Below are positions 577-6,560 of a DNA stretch of 39,268 nucleotides, piece by piece. Origin of the DNA: a virus; IMG/VR virus record IMGVR_UViG_3300046005_000297, positions 1 to 39,268 of that record; one strand, written 5' to 3'. The translations under genes and the position numbers were made by a program. The stretch's first letter is position 1. Each line of letters opens with the position of its first letter. Under the pieces are notes generated by a model that had not been told where the DNA came from, made no database searches, and saw only the letters and a program-made list of their open reading frames with translations.

Positions 577-1983
577 TCATGCTCCTTTTGACTGACGATA
601 CTGTTTAACTGCTGTTCGCAGTCCTGACTGTGTTGTAGCTTTTTCATCCAAGGCTAATGACTGTGCCTGGTCTAATGTGTTCTGCATCAAAATCCTATGG
701 CACATTACTGGTGCACCTTGACCTTGGCGGCGTACTCGTGCATTGAATTGTTCATACAGATCAAGACTCCAGTTCAACCCATACCAGACAAGGATGTGCC
801 CATTCTTTTGCAGTCCATCAATACCATGTCCCATGCTGGCAGGATGACCAATCATCAACTGGCAGTCGTTAGTTTTCCATCGGTGCATGGCATCAACTAG
901 GGCTGCTTCACTTTTGCACTCAGTTAGGTTAATAGGACGGATAGCTTTGAATCGCTCCATGATTCGCTGTGCATCACTTCGGTATGCGTAACTGCACAAC
1001 ACTGGCGAACCCTGCGCTTCGTCTAGTATTTCCTCCAATGCTTCCAGCTTCAGGTCATGCACTGCTTCCCATAGTGGCATACCTGCCACTGGATACATTG
1101 CACCATTGCTGAATTGCAAGCATTTGTTGGTCAGTGCAGCAGCATTAAACGCTTCAACCTCTTTGCCACTGTCCAGCACCATGAAGAACTCTTTTTCCAA
1201 TCGGTCGTACTTGGTGCGTAACTCATCGGGCATCTCAATCTCGATGTTGTTAACGATCAAATCTGGTAACGGGTTGTAGTCCTCTGCACTCATCTCTAGC
1301 GTTATGTCACCAATCAGTTTCTTAATGGTGTCCTCTGTATCATCATAAGGTACCTCTTTATATGGTCCTACTTTGCGGTAGAACCTAGTGCGGAATGAGG
1401 TCTTGCTGGTACCTAAACGTTCGCCACGGTCTACCACCAAGAACTGACCATGTAGGTCTTTGTAACCATTGCTGGCAGGTGTACCTGTCAGTCCTGTAGT
1501 CCAGTCGAAGTAACTGGCAATCTTCTTGTACGACTTCACCCGTTCTGTTGCACTGTTCTTCATCTTGCTGATTTCATCCCACACAATGCCATTGAACGGC
1601 ATAGGCTTGGACTTCTTAATGAAGTACGTTTGCAGCGTTTCGGCAAGCCAGCCAAGGTTCTCATAGTTGATCATGTAAATGTCAGCAGGACGCAGTAAGG
1701 CGCGTGTTCGCTGGTCTTTGGTACCTGCAACCATGCTAAACTTTAAATGCTTCGTATGTTCCCATTTGGTAGCTTCTTGTCGCCATACCAAACGGATAAC
1801 CCGTATAGGCGCAACGATAATTACACCACGTAGAAACTGAGTTTTAATCAGGTGCGCTAATGCGGTAAGCGTAACAACAGTCTTTCCCAATCCCATGTCT
1901 AACCAGAGCATAGAGTTGGGATGGGTGCATTGGAAGTTAACCGCTTTCTTCTGGTAGTCGTGGAGTAGGTCAGGGGTTAGCAT
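577..1983 (-). CDS. SNF2-type superfamily 2 DNA helicase
   Basis: A 468-residue ATP-dependent helicase/translocase. Residues 8-15 (HDYQKKAV) form the Q-like motif, DMGLGKT (29-35) is Walker A, WDEISKMKN is motif II, GLTGTPASNG is motif III, and QFNARVRRQGQ near the C-terminus is the motif VI arginine finger. This is the compact phage form of SNF2 helicase, normally found with VRR-NUC and a DNA polymerase, as here. It is inferred to act in replication or recombination of phage DNA. Its ATG overlaps the stop of the alternative-frame gene 1983-2870 by one base (TAATG) and lies three bases after the cytosine methylase stop. Confidence 0.92.
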   Translation of the reverse strand: MLTPDLLHDYQKKAVNFQCTHPNSMLWLDMGLGKTVVTLTALAHLIKTQFLRGVIIVAPIRVIRLVWRQEATKWEHTKHLKFSMVAGTKDQRTRALLRPADIYMINYENLGWLAETLQTYFIKKSKPMPFNGIVWDEISKMKNSATERVKSYKKIASYFDWTTGLTGTPASNGYKDLHGQFLVVDRGERLGTSKTSFRTRFYRKVGPYKEVPYDDTEDTIKKLIGDITLEMSAEDYNPLPDLIVNNIEIEMPDELRTKYDRLEKEFFMVLDSGKEVEAFNAAALTNKCLQFSNGAMYPVAGMPLWEAVHDLKLEALEEILDEAQGSPVLCSYAYRSDAQRIMERFKAIRPINLTECKSEAALVDAMHRWKTNDCQLMIGHPASMGHGIDGLQKNGHILVWYGLNWSLDLYEQFNARVRRQGQGAPVMCHRILMQNTLDQAQSLALDEKATTQSGLRTAVKQYRQSKGA

Positions 1984-2870
1984 TACTTACTCCGAAGCCA
2001 AGATGGTAAACGCTGTTGCGACTTGGAGGGGGACTTGCCCGTTACCAATTGCTTTAAGTTTGTCCACCCTAGCGGCCACCCCATCAACCACTCGACCCAC
2101 GTTGGGTTCAGTTTGCCACCAGCTTGCGCTGTCAATGTTGGTGTGTTGCGCGTAGATTCGCTTGGTGCGTTTGTCTCTTTCGCAAGGTGCGCTGTCGGTG
2201 TCGGCCACATTGTCTGTTTTTTCATATCCACACAAGGAATCTTTCCCGATACCATTACTTGTTCCGCTAAATTGCCAGGTGGAACTGTTTTTCTCCCTGA
2301 ACTTTCCCTCCACTTGATTCGATGTTGCATTGATTCTTGACTTCTGATTGAGATGTTTGTGACTGTTGGAGTAAGCCAATGCAAACCATCTGTCGCGGTG
2401 ATGCGGTGCCCCGACATCGGATGCTCGTATGCACAACCATCTACTGTCATACCCCATGATGGCCAAGTCTTTGACAACTTGTTCAAGACCGTTGCTTTTA
2501 ATAGCGGCGACATTTTCCAAGAAGATGTATTGGGGTCTAATTGCGCCAGCAATACGCAAGACTTCTCTGTAAAGCCCACTGCGGGTTCCTTCCCCAACAC
2601 CTGCTTGCTTTCCAGCGACACTAATATCTTGGCAAGGGAATCCCGCATGGATGCAATCCACTCTATCGGCGTATTCGGATGGGTCAAAGTTTCTAACATC
2701 TCCTTCCCAGACAACCAATTCGGGAAACCATCCTTCTGCTGCTCGTTCTCTAAGGACTTGACATGGGTAGGGTTCCCATTCGACTGCAACCACTGGGGTA
2801 TGTCCAAGGATAAGGTCTGCAAGGAGTCCTCCACCGGCTCCTGCAAAGAGGTGCATTGTTCGCATTTCAT
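1983..2870 (-). CDS. Overlapping-frame protein within the cytosine methylase (WPTP/WVEWLMGWP family)
   Basis: A second open frame of 295 residues runs the full length of the methylase gene on the same strand. It is not a random shadow: it carries LAQLDPNTSSWKM (about 108-120), WPTPTA near 222 and NPTWVEWLMGWPLGWTNL near 255-272, a pattern I recognise from many phage and prophage proteins of unknown role. Its ATG overlaps the VRR-NUC stop (ATGA) and its stop overlaps the helicase start (TAATG), exactly the spacing of its neighbours. GGGAG is only one base from this ATG, so initiation would rely on coupling or a later start. It could be a genuine dual-coded protein, or a by-product of strong conservation in the methylase frame. 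Confidence 0.5.
   Translation of the reverse strand: MKCEQCTSLQEPVEDSLQTLSLDIPQWLQSNGNPTHVKSLENEQQKDGFPNWLSGKEMLETLTHPNTPIEWIASMRDSLAKILVSLESKQVLGKEPAVGFTEKSCVLLAQLDPNTSSWKMSPLLKATVLNKLSKTWPSWGMTVDGCAYEHPMSGHRITATDGLHWLTPTVTNISIRSQESMQHRIKWRESSGRKTVPPGNLAEQVMVSGKIPCVDMKKQTMWPTPTAHLAKETNAPSESTRNTPTLTAQAGGKLNPTWVEWLMGWPLGWTNLKQLVTGKSPSKSQQRLPSWLRSK
1987..2865 (-). CDS. DNA (cytosine-5) methyltransferase
   Basis: A 292-residue C5 methylase that transfers a methyl group from SAM to cytosine in DNA. Motif I FAGAGGG is at 7-13, motif IV GFPCQDIS carries catalytic Cys78, motif VI ENV is at 117-119, motif VIII-like RDRWFALA at 157-164, a variable target-recognition region runs from about 165 to 255, and motif X AIGNGQVP is at 272-279. 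All catalytic motifs are intact. The ATG is preceded by GGGAG with six-base spacing, an ideal ribosome site. In phages such enzymes protect DNA from host restriction; the target site cannot be read. The whole gene is overlapped in another frame by 1983-2870. Confidence 0.93.
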   Translation of the reverse strand: MRTMHLFAGAGGGLLADLILGHTPVVAVEWEPYPCQVLRERAAEGWFPELVVWEGDVRNFDPSEYADRVDCIHAGFPCQDISVAGKQAGVGEGTRSGLYREVLRIAGAIRPQYIFLENVAAIKSNGLEQVVKDLAIMGYDSRWLCIRASDVGAPHHRDRWFALAYSNSHKHLNQKSRINATSNQVEGKFREKNSSTWQFSGTSNGIGKDSLCGYEKTDNVADTDSAPCERDKRTKRIYAQHTNIDSASWWQTEPNVGRVVDGVAARVDKLKAIGNGQVPLQVATAFTILASE

Positions 2871-3151
2871 ACTCCCATCACCATAAAATCAATCATAGTC
2901 TTACCTTCTTCCACGTTGTCAATCACAAACACGTTTACCTTGTGTTGCCGTAGTCGATGGTGTTCGCGCTCCTGTGCTTCGGTAGGCTTTGCACCTTGAC
3001 GCTTGAACTCTACAAACCAGATACGCCCGTCAGGTCGGATAAACATACGGTCAGGTACAGCAGCTCGTGCGGGACTGGTGAACTTGTACACCAATATATT
3101 CTTGGTTTTTGCGTACTCGCACACCTTGGATTCAATCTGTTTTTCTAACAT
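2867..3151 (-). CDS. VRR-NUC domain nuclease
   Basis: A 94-residue stand-alone VRR-NUC protein of the PD-(D/E)XK nuclease fold. The core is visible: an E-rich N-terminal helix (EKQIESKV), SPARAAVPDRMFIRPDG containing the catalytic Asp, WFVEFKRQG with the E-x-K pair, PTEAQEREH and a terminal VFVIDN strand. Single-domain viral VRR-NUC proteins are thought to be structure-specific nucleases acting on branched DNA, and usually sit beside SNF2 helicases in phages, as here. It overlaps the gene before it by 20 bases and the alternative-frame gene after it by ATGA. Confidence 0.9.
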   Translation of the reverse strand: MLEKQIESKVCEYAKTKNILVYKFTSPARAAVPDRMFIRPDGRIWFVEFKRQGAKPTEAQEREHHRLRQHKVNVFVIDNVEEGKTMIDFMVMGV

Positions 3152-3338
3152 TTCTGTTCTCCATTCTTATTGATAACTCCGCTATACGTGGTTCACGCAA
3201 TGGTTCACGTTTATGGTTCAATGCTTTACGCAATTCAAAAATCAAGTCAGTACTGTGTGCAAACTTATCTGTACCAATGTTGTAATGGTTGTATGTTTCC
3301 AACGCAGTCAGTGCTTCAGCGGTTAATTTCTCTAGCAT
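3132..3338 (-). CDS. Small hypothetical protein
   Basis: A 68-residue charged protein with no family I recognise. It starts MLEKLTAEAL and ends with MENRNVR, the same words that begin the VRR-NUC gene and end the DUF3310 gene, because both gene junctions are copies of one 33-bp sequence. It overlaps both neighbours by about 20 bases and has a GGAG-type ribosome site inside the upstream gene. It is likely a translated operon member. Confidence 0.65.
   Translation of the reverse strand: MLEKLTAEALTALETYNHYNIGTDKFAHSTDLIFELRKALNHKREPLREPRIAELSIRMENRNVRKTD
3144..3176. repeat. Duplicated gene-junction sequence, copy 1
   Basis: About 33 bases at 3144-3176 resemble 3331-3363, including an identical 16-base core (catttctgttctccat). 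Each copy spans the end of one leftward gene (MENRN) and the ribosome site and start of the next (MLEK). The pattern suggests tandem duplication of a translation-reinitiation junction 187 bp apart. Confidence 0.75.
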
Positions 3339-3549
3339 TTCTGTTCTCCATCTCTATCAATAATTCAATGTAGTGCTTGGCTTTTTCCAAGTCTGCTATG
3401 CCGTTCTTTGCTCTCCAGCGGCTCACGTATTTGATTACGTTACCCTCAAAGTACCCTATGCCGTTAGCATGGATGTACTCTACGGGTTGAATAGGCAGGT
3501 CTTTGTAGTGGGTTCCCGAAACCTGTTTGGTTAGGCTAGACTCAGACAT
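3316..3549 (-). CDS. DUF3310 protein
   Basis: A 77-residue protein with the classic DUF3310 arrangement: GTHYKDLPIQPVEYI, GIGYFEGNVIKYVSRW and NGIADLEKAKHYIELLIE. DUF3310 is the domain found in T7 gp1.7-type nucleotide kinase proteins and in many phage early genes, so a role in nucleotide metabolism is plausible but not proven for this short form. It overlaps the polymerase stop by 19 bases and the next gene by 23. Confidence 0.88.
   Translation of the reverse strand: MSESSLTKQVSGTHYKDLPIQPVEYIHANGIGYFEGNVIKYVSRWRAKNGIADLEKAKHYIELLIEMENRNAREINR
3331..3363. repeat. Duplicated gene-junction sequence, copy 2
   Basis: Partner of 3144-3176. It spans the 3' end of the DUF3310 gene and the start of the 68-residue gene at 3338. 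Differences between copies concentrate at the outer edge, while the ribosome-site/start core is unchanged. Confidence 0.75.
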
Positions 3550-5366
3550 AACTTCTCCACTTCATTGATGTAGTATTCGTAGTCAATTGGTAACGTGGCA
3601 TCGGCAATGTTGTTACATACCTGTACGTTCCAACCACTCTCTACGCATATCTTGCGCAACACTGTAGGCTTCTTGGCTAACGGTGGCATCCACTTGTTCA
3701 ATGGCTTACCGCCCTTGGATATGTAGTACCTAGTGGTGTTCTGTACTTGACTTTCACCCCATACCAAGTGACTACTGCGTGGTACTTTGGTGCGTAGCAT
3801 GAAGTCCATTTTGTCTTGCCACTGTTCTATGGTTTGACGAATAGGTGCACCATCTACCAACACCTTCTCTGCTACCTTTGGTACCACTAATGCACCTGCG
3901 TTCTGGTGCCATTCGGTTTTCCACTCGTAGGCACCTTTACGTTTAGTGCTACCGTCCTCATAGACTGCAATGTAGTTGTTCACATCACGAATCATCATGG
4001 ACTTGTAAACGGCTTCTTCAAGGTTTAACCCTGTGCGCTCTTGCCATGATGCCCTTGCCAAGTCCACCAATACCTTGTAACTACGTGGTACCTTAACTGT
4101 CAGACCATCGGTGTTCACTTGGATTAGCTGCAAGCCTGGTATCGCCATTAAACCCTCTGCCAACAGGCACAGCAGCAACTGACCATTAAGCGTAATGCTC
4201 ATGGTAAACAATGGGTCATAAAACACACTGAACTGGTTGTTGCTATCGCCATACACACCATTCAATGCCAGCTTCAACATGGCGCTTTCAGCAGACTTTT
4301 TGGAGTATCCTTTACGTTGTTCAAATAAATGCTTGTAGATTGCGACAAATTGCTTACCCAAGTGGGCTGGATAAAACCCATTGGTGATTGCAAGGTTTGG
4401 GTAGTAGCTGGTAACGTCCAGATCAACGATGACATTTTCGTCATCGGATTCGACCACAACTGATTCCATTGAGCCATGAATACCTCCAAGACCAAACACA
4501 AAAGTAAAACCATTAATAACAGCAGTCAAGTCTTCAAACACACCTTTAGTTTCTGTAATCGACTGACCTTTAAGCCAGTTCAACACACGATTGAACTCAG
4601 GTTGATCAAACTTTATCCACGGCAGGATAGCGTCCTTCAGATGTATTACTGGTCGCTTGGTCTGTCGTGGTGTACGTCCTTTACTGGAAAAGTCGTAACA
4701 GGCAACCCCTGATTCCTCCAGCTTCATGATAAAGAACTCTTTACCAATCTTGGTATCGTTAAAGTTAAGCCAGTCTTTACCAGGGTACAACGTGCACAAA
4801 TTTTCCCGAAAACTTAACATATCAAGTGTGACGTGCATAAATTTCTTCGTTTGTTTAACATCATGCTGGTTATATCGCTTCAGCACTTCCGCCTGATCAC
4901 GAGTTAACATGGTGCCTACCTTATATGGCAAGTCCTCGATGGTGTCAGAGCGCATATTGAACTCTAACGACTTCAGACTGGTAGAACGTGCCTTGTTGTC
5001 AAAATGGTGTATCTTGAACAGGTCAATCTGCACTACCATGCGGTCACTTGGATTGACCATGTGCGCCCACTTATCGCTGTCCTGCGCGTCAATGATGGCT
5101 TGCGCCTTTTGGTACAGGGTGTATGCGTCAGACTTACCCATGCGTATTAGTGTGTGCAGTACAGGGTAATCAAATCCGGTGTTATTGAACCCGACCATGC
5201 GTGCATCGGTGTCTTTCAGGTACTGTAAAAACGATACGATTTCCCGTGAGTCGTTACGCCAGTCACTAATCTCAAACAGCCATGATAAGGGTGATTCTGC
5301 GTGCTCTACTGCCAGTGTGAATACGTTTGGAAACGTTTCAATGTCATAGATGTAGTCGTTACTCAT
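3531..5366 (-). CDS. Family B DNA polymerase with 3'-5' exonuclease
   Basis: A 611-residue replicative polymerase. The N-terminal exonuclease has ExoI YDIETFP (7-13), ExoII NNTGFDYP and ExoIII YNQHDVKQT. The polymerase part has motif A DLDVTSYYPNL, motif B KLALNGVYG and motif C VNTDGLTV. Motif C reads NTDG rather than the usual DTDS: the second aspartate, the essential metal ligand in well-studied family B enzymes, is kept, while the first is Asn. The protein is short for the family and I see no protein-primed TPR insertions. It overlaps the methylase before it by ATGA. It replaces the family A polymerase more usual in this gene cassette. Confidence 0.9.
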   Translation of the reverse strand: MSNDYIYDIETFPNVFTLAVEHAESPLSWLFEISDWRNDSREIVSFLQYLKDTDARMVGFNNTGFDYPVLHTLIRMGKSDAYTLYQKAQAIIDAQDSDKWAHMVNPSDRMVVQIDLFKIHHFDNKARSTSLKSLEFNMRSDTIEDLPYKVGTMLTRDQAEVLKRYNQHDVKQTKKFMHVTLDMLSFRENLCTLYPGKDWLNFNDTKIGKEFFIMKLEESGVACYDFSSKGRTPRQTKRPVIHLKDAILPWIKFDQPEFNRVLNWLKGQSITETKGVFEDLTAVINGFTFVFGLGGIHGSMESVVVESDDENVIVDLDVTSYYPNLAITNGFYPAHLGKQFVAIYKHLFEQRKGYSKKSAESAMLKLALNGVYGDSNNQFSVFYDPLFTMSITLNGQLLLCLLAEGLMAIPGLQLIQVNTDGLTVKVPRSYKVLVDLARASWQERTGLNLEEAVYKSMMIRDVNNYIAVYEDGSTKRKGAYEWKTEWHQNAGALVVPKVAEKVLVDGAPIRQTIEQWQDKMDFMLRTKVPRSSHLVWGESQVQNTTRYYISKGGKPLNKWMPPLAKKPTVLRKICVESGWNVQVCNNIADATLPIDYEYYINEVEKLCLSLA

Positions 5367-5845
5367 TTTAATAACACCAGCTTTCCAGTGAACTCAGAAT
5401 TTTGTAGTTTGTCCACACTCGATTTACCATAAGCAATTAAACAGCTTGGTGCATTGGCAACATCGGCTTCGCTACCGTTAACATAGCAAAACTTCAATCT
5501 ACCTTTAAAGAAAAATACAGCATCTGCGCGTTGCCAAACTTGTTCATGAAAACCTATGGTTTCAGTTCTGGCAAACACCAATGCAATACCGTTACCGTGA
5601 TCTGCTAGTTTCGACAACCACTTGAATGTTTCTTTGCCGTATGGTGGATTGCACCACACTGAACCAAACCAAGGTGCTCTTAAACCGTCATGTGTTTTAT
5701 CAAAATGGTGTGCGGCAGTGTCCCAAGGGCGACAAATAGGACTGCATGGGTCAAGATCAAACGGACCAAGCGTATCGGTAATATGCTTTGGAGTTAACCA
5801 TTCATCATGTCCATCTGTAACCGTGTTAAAGTTTCTCTTACTCAT
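5363..5845 (-). CDS. Phage Dam-like DNA N6-adenine methyltransferase
   Basis: A 160-residue protein of the phage DNA N-6-adenine-methyltransferase (Dam) family. Visible signatures are DEWLTPKHI (14-22), FDLDPCSP, DGLRAPW and the catalytic CNPPYG motif (about 65-70), followed by ALVFARTET. The order suits this short amino-methylase family. It would methylate adenine, protecting phage DNA against restriction; the target sequence is unknown. Together with the C5 methylase the phage carries two DNA modification activities. It overlaps the polymerase start by four bases and is separated from DUF2815 by a UUCG hairpin. Confidence 0.87.
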   Translation of the reverse strand: MSKRNFNTVTDGHDEWLTPKHITDTLGPFDLDPCSPICRPWDTAAHHFDKTHDGLRAPWFGSVWCNPPYGKETFKWLSKLADHGNGIALVFARTETIGFHEQVWQRADAVFFFKGRLKFCYVNGSEADVANAPSCLIAYGKSSVDKLQNSEFTGKLVLLK

Positions 5846-5891: not shown

Positions 5892-6560
5892 TTAACCAAA
5901 AAACGATGGCAGACCAGCAGGTGCACCGAATGGTGCAGCAGGCATAGCAGGTGCCACAGGTGCAAAGCCTGGTACAGTAGTTACTGCGCCAAACAATGCA
6001 GAAGCATCTGCACTACCTTCACCAAACGCTGTATCGTCAGCGGCAAACTGAACAGCTATCAGGTCACAACGGATACCGCGACCATGCTTGTTATCCTGCA
6101 CCCAAGGCTTGACGGCAGCGTTTACACGGCAACCACCATACATCTTACGTGCGAGTGCTTGGTACGCCATTGTGTTAGCAGGGTCAACAGCTTGACCATT
6201 ATCTTGAATCATCTGTGGTGCGCTATCACGACCACCAGTGATAAACATATTGCCAGCGTAACCGTCATACGTTTGGAAGTTCTTACGATTAACCTTTTCT
6301 TCACCTTTGCCAAAGCAACGGGTTTTACGGTCAGCAAGAATCATAGCCATTACGGGCTGCGCGTGCTCTTTCCACTTCTCTAATGCCAGTGCGCCATAAC
6401 GTGCCATGAACTGCTGAAAACCAGCATGTTCTTGCGGCATGATGAACTCGCAGTTGTAAGAGATGCGGGTTGCACCTGTTTGCTCGTTAACCTGCTTTTG
6501 TGGTTCAGCAAGGTGTGGGAAAGACAAACGTACATTAGACAAAAAGATAATATCGGACAT
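5892..6560 (-). CDS. DUF2815 single-stranded DNA-binding-like protein
   Basis: A 222-residue DUF2815 protein, a family regarded as OB-fold, SSB-like. The signatures are LSNVRLSFPHLAEP (8-21), YGGCRVNAAVKPW and NKHGRGIRCDLIAVQF. After about residue 180 comes an Ala/Pro-rich linker with ALFGAVT, ending LPSFFG (217-222). The layout of OB fold, flexible linker and hydrophobic tip is like bacterial SSB, but the tip is not acidic. The tail resembles the end of the DUF2800 protein encoded next to it. It is inferred to coat ssDNA during phage replication and to recruit partners through its tail. Confidence 0.85.
   Translation of the reverse strand: MSDIIFLSNVRLSFPHLAEPQKQVNEQTGATRISYNCEFIMPQEHAGFQQFMARYGALALEKWKEHAQPVMAMILADRKTRCFGKGEEKVNRKNFQTYDGYAGNMFITGGRDSAPQMIQDNGQAVDPANTMAYQALARKMYGGCRVNAAVKPWVQDNKHGRGIRCDLIAVQFAADDTAFGEGSADASALFGAVTTVPGFAPVAPAMPAAPFGAPAGLPSFFG

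Follow-up and report, generated by a model that had tools for sequence, protein, structure and literature searches.

A phage locus with two overlapping frames probably encodes both subunits of a C5 cytosine DNA methylase

Can one stretch of phage DNA be read as two proteins in two frames of the same strand, and if so, what does the second protein contribute? The question arises at a cytosine methylase locus in the virus record IMGVR_UViG_3300046005_000297, which was analysed over its 39,268 nucleotides (the window). The original prediction of two full-length ORFs in different frames holds: both are complete and lie on the minus strand, alpha at 1987-2865 (292 aa) and beta at 1983-2870 (295 aa). 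Beta is in the +1 frame relative to alpha and encloses it fully, overhanging it by 5 nt ahead of the alpha start and by 4 nt beyond the alpha stop. The tandem start ATGAAATG (2863-2870, minus strand) contains the beta ATG at 2870 and the alpha ATG at 2865, and at the other end (1981-1989, minus strand) the alpha stop TAA (1987-1989) is followed by the beta stop TAA (1983-1985). Two overlaps with neighbouring genes, which had been noted for the second frame, are present and belong to the beta frame: the beta ATG overlaps the stop of an upstream nuclease ORF (2867-3151) in an ATGA junction, and the beta stop overlaps the ATG (1981-1983) of a downstream SNF2 helicase ORF (577-1983) in a TAATG junction. 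The proposed membership of the second frame in a widespread phage family was borne out as well, with a match of beta to phrog_1008 (E=7e-17) and matches for all 92 aligned members.

Alpha alone is readily classified as a C5 cytosine DNA methylase, matching PF00145 (E=1.3e-35, residues 1-227) and phrog_363. Its motifs I (FAGAGGG), IV (FPCQ), VI (ENV) and VIII (PHHRDRW) at 2386-2847 (minus strand) aligned to M.HhaI 15-176 (profile E=4e-25). Motif X (KLKAIGNGQVP; 2029-2061, minus strand), with G274, N275 and Q277 invariant in an alignment of 83 sequences, is in the alpha frame in loci built like the window (type 1, see below). The conserved columns of that alignment, in motifs I, IV (PCQ), VI (ENV), VIII (RxR) and X (GNG), are all present in alpha. 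The AF2 model has pLDDT values mostly >90 over residues 1-150, is well ordered to about residue 170 (motif VIII) and again at the motif X helices, and drops to a pLDDT of about 40 over residues 183-265. It shares the large-domain fold of M.HhaI (Z 23.4 over 190 of 327 residues) and M.HaeIII (Z 20.6). In contrast to these enzymes, where the small domain and motif IX are part of the same chain, neither was recognised in the alpha chain, and the profile match to M.HhaI stops at motif VIII. Based on this early end and the low-confidence residues 183-265, alpha seems to be missing its small domain, together with motif IX.

Before a function is sought for beta, it has to be asked whether its frame is selected at all. 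Selection might act on the methylase frame only, whose conservation or codon bias would then mimic a second family; in line with such a shadow, all members overlap a methylase and deposited annotation often omits the second frame. The distribution of stop codons speaks against it. When alpha was recoded with the codon usage of neighbouring genes, the beta frame acquired 8.2 stops on average and was stop-free in about 1 of 3000 trials; after shuffling of alpha's own codons it was stop-free in 0.9% of trials. For the relatives we used 160 phage-contig loci, 80 found by alpha query and 80 by beta query, with a clean set of 117 sequences; positions are given in the residue numbering of the alpha (methylase) frame. 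In this sample, half of which was retrieved with beta patterns and whose loci share ancestry, 24 beta-frame stops were observed over residues 8-270 in the methylase-query set (299 expected) and 9 in the beta-query set (369 expected). Second-frame homologues are therefore seldom broken by stops, the frame being stop-free in 45 of 51 methylase-query sequences over residues 8-270, with 0.13 expected. The +2 frame, which served as control, behaved normally, with stops at or above the expected number over most of the gene and no avoidance. Over residues 8-105 we counted 24 beta-frame stops vs 209 expected. The corresponding beta residues 1-100 (2571-2870, minus strand) are open in nearly all relatives, yet show little amino-acid constraint; their openness is accounted for only as a route from the conserved start to the downstream part.

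The second line of evidence comes from silent sites. In this arrangement, each third codon position of alpha coincides with a second codon position of beta, and nearly any silent third-base change in alpha therefore alters beta, whereas the first codon position of alpha is mostly silent in beta. The check for synonymous-site constraint that had been suggested gave a clear outcome: in pairwise counts on related sequences, made without tree correction, third-position differences in alpha amounted to 0.058 vs 0.206 in neighbouring genes at 90-100% amino-acid identity, and to 0.407 vs 0.553 at 60-70%. The constraint is regional and concentrated in alpha residues 106-150 and 211-270. Fourfold-site identity was overall near control over residues 8-105, despite the stop avoidance there, rose to 0.71-0.80 over residues 106-150 (control 0.59), and reached 0.97 over residues 256-270 around the WVEWLMGW motif, compared with 0.59 in neighbouring control genes. 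Over the last alpha residues, which lie past the end of beta in most loci, it was at control level again. Within the segment between alpha motifs VIII and X (2071-2386, minus strand), which includes the poorly modelled residues, differences over residues 217-264 are more frequent at first than at third codon positions (m1/m3 1.3-3.7 vs 0.46 in the control), which indicates that beta is the more conserved frame there. The 3' part of this segment is dominated by beta (WPTPTA...GGKLNPTW), and the VADTDS-like residues of alpha look, from the sequence comparison, like a by-product of constraint on beta.

The start codons provided further evidence. In 79 of the 117 relatives, the beta ATG follows the alpha start position at +4 (AATG), and in at least 22 of the 117 (about a fifth) it is located 5 nt before this position, as in the window. 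Wherever alpha starts with ATG in the +4 class, its second codon is AAT (40/40), while Asn codons elsewhere in alpha are AAC in 794 and AAT in 472 cases. Fourteen loci have no start codon at the usual alpha position and possible alpha starts upstream; the beta ATG is kept in them. A Shine-Dalgarno-like string of >=4 bases occurs shortly ahead of the beta ATG in 61 of the 79 loci of the +4 class. Together, the conserved ATG and these strings point to separate initiation of beta and argue against a frameshift product. Programmed +1 frameshifting, in which ribosomes would start alpha and shift to the beta frame after motif VIII to yield a fused chain with motif IX, has some appeal through the actinophage forms of the locus, which resemble two ORFs in frames 0 and +1 and could be fused. 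It needs neither the kept beta ATG nor an open beta frame upstream, where stops are avoided over residues 8-105, and motif X remains in frame 0 in type 1 loci; we consider it very improbable. As for the methylase-conservation shadow, which the original prediction had itself named as its alternative, it fails with the stop counts, the silent sites, the region-wise rates and the start codons, and its probability is close to negligible. All four agree with the conserved double-coding gene that had been proposed, and from the sequences, dual coding at this locus is as good as certain.

What, then, does beta encode? Sequence searches against Pfam, NCBIfam and PDB gave no match, and the AF2 prediction for beta is of low quality (mean pLDDT 59, pTM 0.26), too weak for a structure search against the small domain of M.HhaI. 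Comparative evidence was more informative. The block LNPTWVEWLMGWPLGWT (2061-2111, minus strand) combines a fourfold identity of 97% vs 59% with m1/m3 values of up to 3.7 vs 0.46 and was assigned as the equivalent of motif IX. The near-invariant block GGKLNPTWVEWLMGWPLGWT is similar to the part of C5 methylases that contains motif IX and is what we take to be motif IX, a likeness that was tested comparatively. In three loci (L070, L171 and L172), the LNPTWVEWLMGWPLGWT block occurs in one chain with the catalytic domain. A second block in the middle of beta (2355-2657, minus strand; helix 68-89, strands 107-120, ...SWKMS...TWPSWGM...) shows clear silent-site constraint from about alpha residue 106 onward, and an HMM built from it also matches the +1 frame of the actinophage forms; no counterpart of this block was found among solved methylases.

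To see how the parts are laid out in other loci, we searched with HMMs of the catalytic part, the middle block of beta, and motifs IX and X. Type 1, the layout of the window, has motif IX in the +1 frame but motif X in frame 0; it was counted at 217 places, a number that includes some repeat retrievals of the same contig. Both motifs are in the +1 frame in type 2, which comprises actinophages such as Streptomyces phage Heather; independently of the HMMs, phrog_116 links two proteins of this phage, with gp36 matching its C-terminal part (E=1e-8) and the catalytic domain of gp35 an earlier part. In type 3 (L070, L171, L172), IX and X are in frame 0 as one chain with the catalytic domain, as exemplified by L070 (RLNVALAEWMMGLPPGWV...LIGNGVVPQQA), although the motif IX HMM matches are short and low here (12-27 bits). 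The layouts can be read as a natural series in which the other frame has neither motif (a single chain), only motif IX, or both IX and X. Six loci (L030-032, L035, L108, L217) have swapped frames, which look like single indels and may be sequencing errors. In L030, L031 and L032, the swap near the segment between motifs VIII and X makes alpha continue into motif IX and leaves motif X in the +2 frame; these may be real variants or indel errors.

About 200 loci, drawn from phages, prophages and bacterial contigs, show the overlap. Type 1 was found in IMG/VR contigs, in the isolated phages Acinetobacter ABMM1, Stenotrophomonas SOVA965, C72C1 and Paenibacillus Bloom, in E. coli prophage regions and in many bacterial and archaeal contigs, and a beta search of plasmids returned one Leptospira plasmid with the same layout. 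In the syntenic relative DSL-LC05, a phage (L168, ~2152-4209), the nuclease ORF is immediately followed by the SNF2 helicase ORF without an alpha/beta pair; this natural pair-free site retains the flanking nuclease, helicase and polymerase genes, and the pair thus behaves as one cassette.

With these data, the place of beta relative to the methylase could be assessed. No beta without alpha in the -1 frame was found wherever upstream DNA sufficed, and the search for second-frame members away from a methylase, which had been proposed as a check, came back empty for all members with enough upstream DNA. Five candidates first looked free of a catalytic domain. In L244 and L263, a methylase is present in the -1 frame below the search threshold; L258 consists of two tandem places with methylase-like sequence in a neighbouring frame, as judged by eye; L088 and L093 are contig ends. 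An independent protein, anti-restriction or regulatory, that is merely encoded within the methylase gene could account for the own start of beta, for the middle block without a counterpart found in solved methylases and for the phage setting, but not for the fact that, where enough upstream DNA is available, it is never found away from alpha, that its most conserved block is motif IX, absent from alpha and joined to the catalytic domain in the three type 3 loci, or that motif X moves between both ORFs. It is improbable, if less so than frameshifting. A family whose members with enough upstream DNA all overlap a C5 methylase, and whose hallmark is the very motif that alpha lacks, looks like a second subunit of the same enzyme. 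We put a probability of roughly 85% on this reading, in which beta would supply motif IX and the assembly and activity of the two chains are inferred from the sequences. The single chain of a C5 methylase with large domain, small domain and motif IX would thus be matched only by alpha and beta jointly. Of the anti-restriction partner suggested originally, the idea of a separate protein is not supported, since beta overlaps the methylase wherever enough upstream DNA is available and carries its motif IX; protection of the phage may still be a role of the whole enzyme.

The locus would accordingly be a two-polypeptide C5 cytosine DNA methylase encoded by one DNA stretch that is read in two frames. 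The catalytic large domain would come from alpha, which carries motifs I-VIII and, near its C-terminus, motif X. Beta, presumably initiated at a separate ATG only a few bases away from that of alpha, would contribute motif IX and probably the small domain for DNA recognition. The two chains are predicted to bind into an active enzyme that needs both of them, and this enzyme would most likely methylate the phage's own DNA, for example against host restriction.

The closest known case appears to be M.EcoHK31I, a comparison made by motif layout. Its two polypeptides are reportedly both needed, and the smaller ORF is said to lie inside the larger one in another frame. In both systems, motifs I-VIII and X belong to the large subunit and motif IX to a second polypeptide, which in the window, and reportedly in EcoHK31I, is read from the shared DNA in another frame. 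Read from the sequence alone, the identical motif split suggests that the window pair works like M.EcoHK31I. According to the literature, the larger polypeptide of this enzyme (YGGCCR) also contains the predicted recognition domain, and the smaller one has motif IX only (PMC3404938, citing Lee 1995). In the window, by contrast, the recognition domain is probably on beta, which equals alpha in length, spans it entirely and starts a few bases from its start, and the pair is part of a phage gene cluster; next to it, no endonuclease that would complete a restriction system was recognised. M.AquI (CYCGRG) is split between motifs VIII and IX into two polypeptides, the small one carrying both IX and X (PMC3404938), unlike the window, where motif X is on alpha; gp35/gp36 of Streptomyces phage Heather are AquI-like. 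A search of open-access papers for phage C5 methylase genes with such an overlap gave none. New here are the complete overlap from start to stop, its wide distribution and the mostly unannotated beta. More tentatively, and with the odds somewhat against the full picture, the loci may form a widespread phage/prophage class with both subunits overprinted from start to stop, whose near-adjacent starts may couple synthesis and assembly. Beta would then be a composite, with N-terminal and middle parts that arose by overprinting and are joined to an older motif IX domain, motif X could be in either frame, and the split forms would belong to one evolutionary series.

Complete same-strand overlap with measurable selection on both frames is uncommon, and such a pair is easily missed. 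Among the type 1 phage records examined, only Paenibacillus phage Bloom has both ORFs annotated, both named methyltransferase, and the others list alpha only. Cloning the annotated gene with recoded codons would therefore lose beta and probably yield a dead enzyme. PHROG 1008 and PHROG 363, matched by beta and alpha, respectively, are both labelled just 'DNA methyltransferase' with the overlap not stated; such a family label can conceal two proteins in different frames.

Three further loci stand out. In Mycobacterium phage Llama (L163, gp74/gp75), a frameshifted locus annotated as two methylases, alpha is split over two frames and a beta-like IX block is in the third. The alpha/beta locus in the prophage region of E. 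coli PCP07014 (L269, 3374-4135) is annotated as a pseudogene and has a stop in both frames at about the same place. The prophage region of E. coli PT62 (L268, 435-1421 and 3393-4130) encodes two distinct C5 methylases separated by about 2 kb; the second shows the alpha/beta layout, and so, as judged by eye, does apparently the first.

In the window itself, the minus-strand gene cluster of the pair also includes a MazG-like gene (68-373), a DUF3310 gene (3316-3549) and an Enc34-type ssDNA-binding gene (5892-6560). Near the C5 methylase, a Dam-like N6-adenine methylase is encoded at 5363-5845 (minus strand; PF05869, E=3.5e-10), so the phage carries two DNA methylases.
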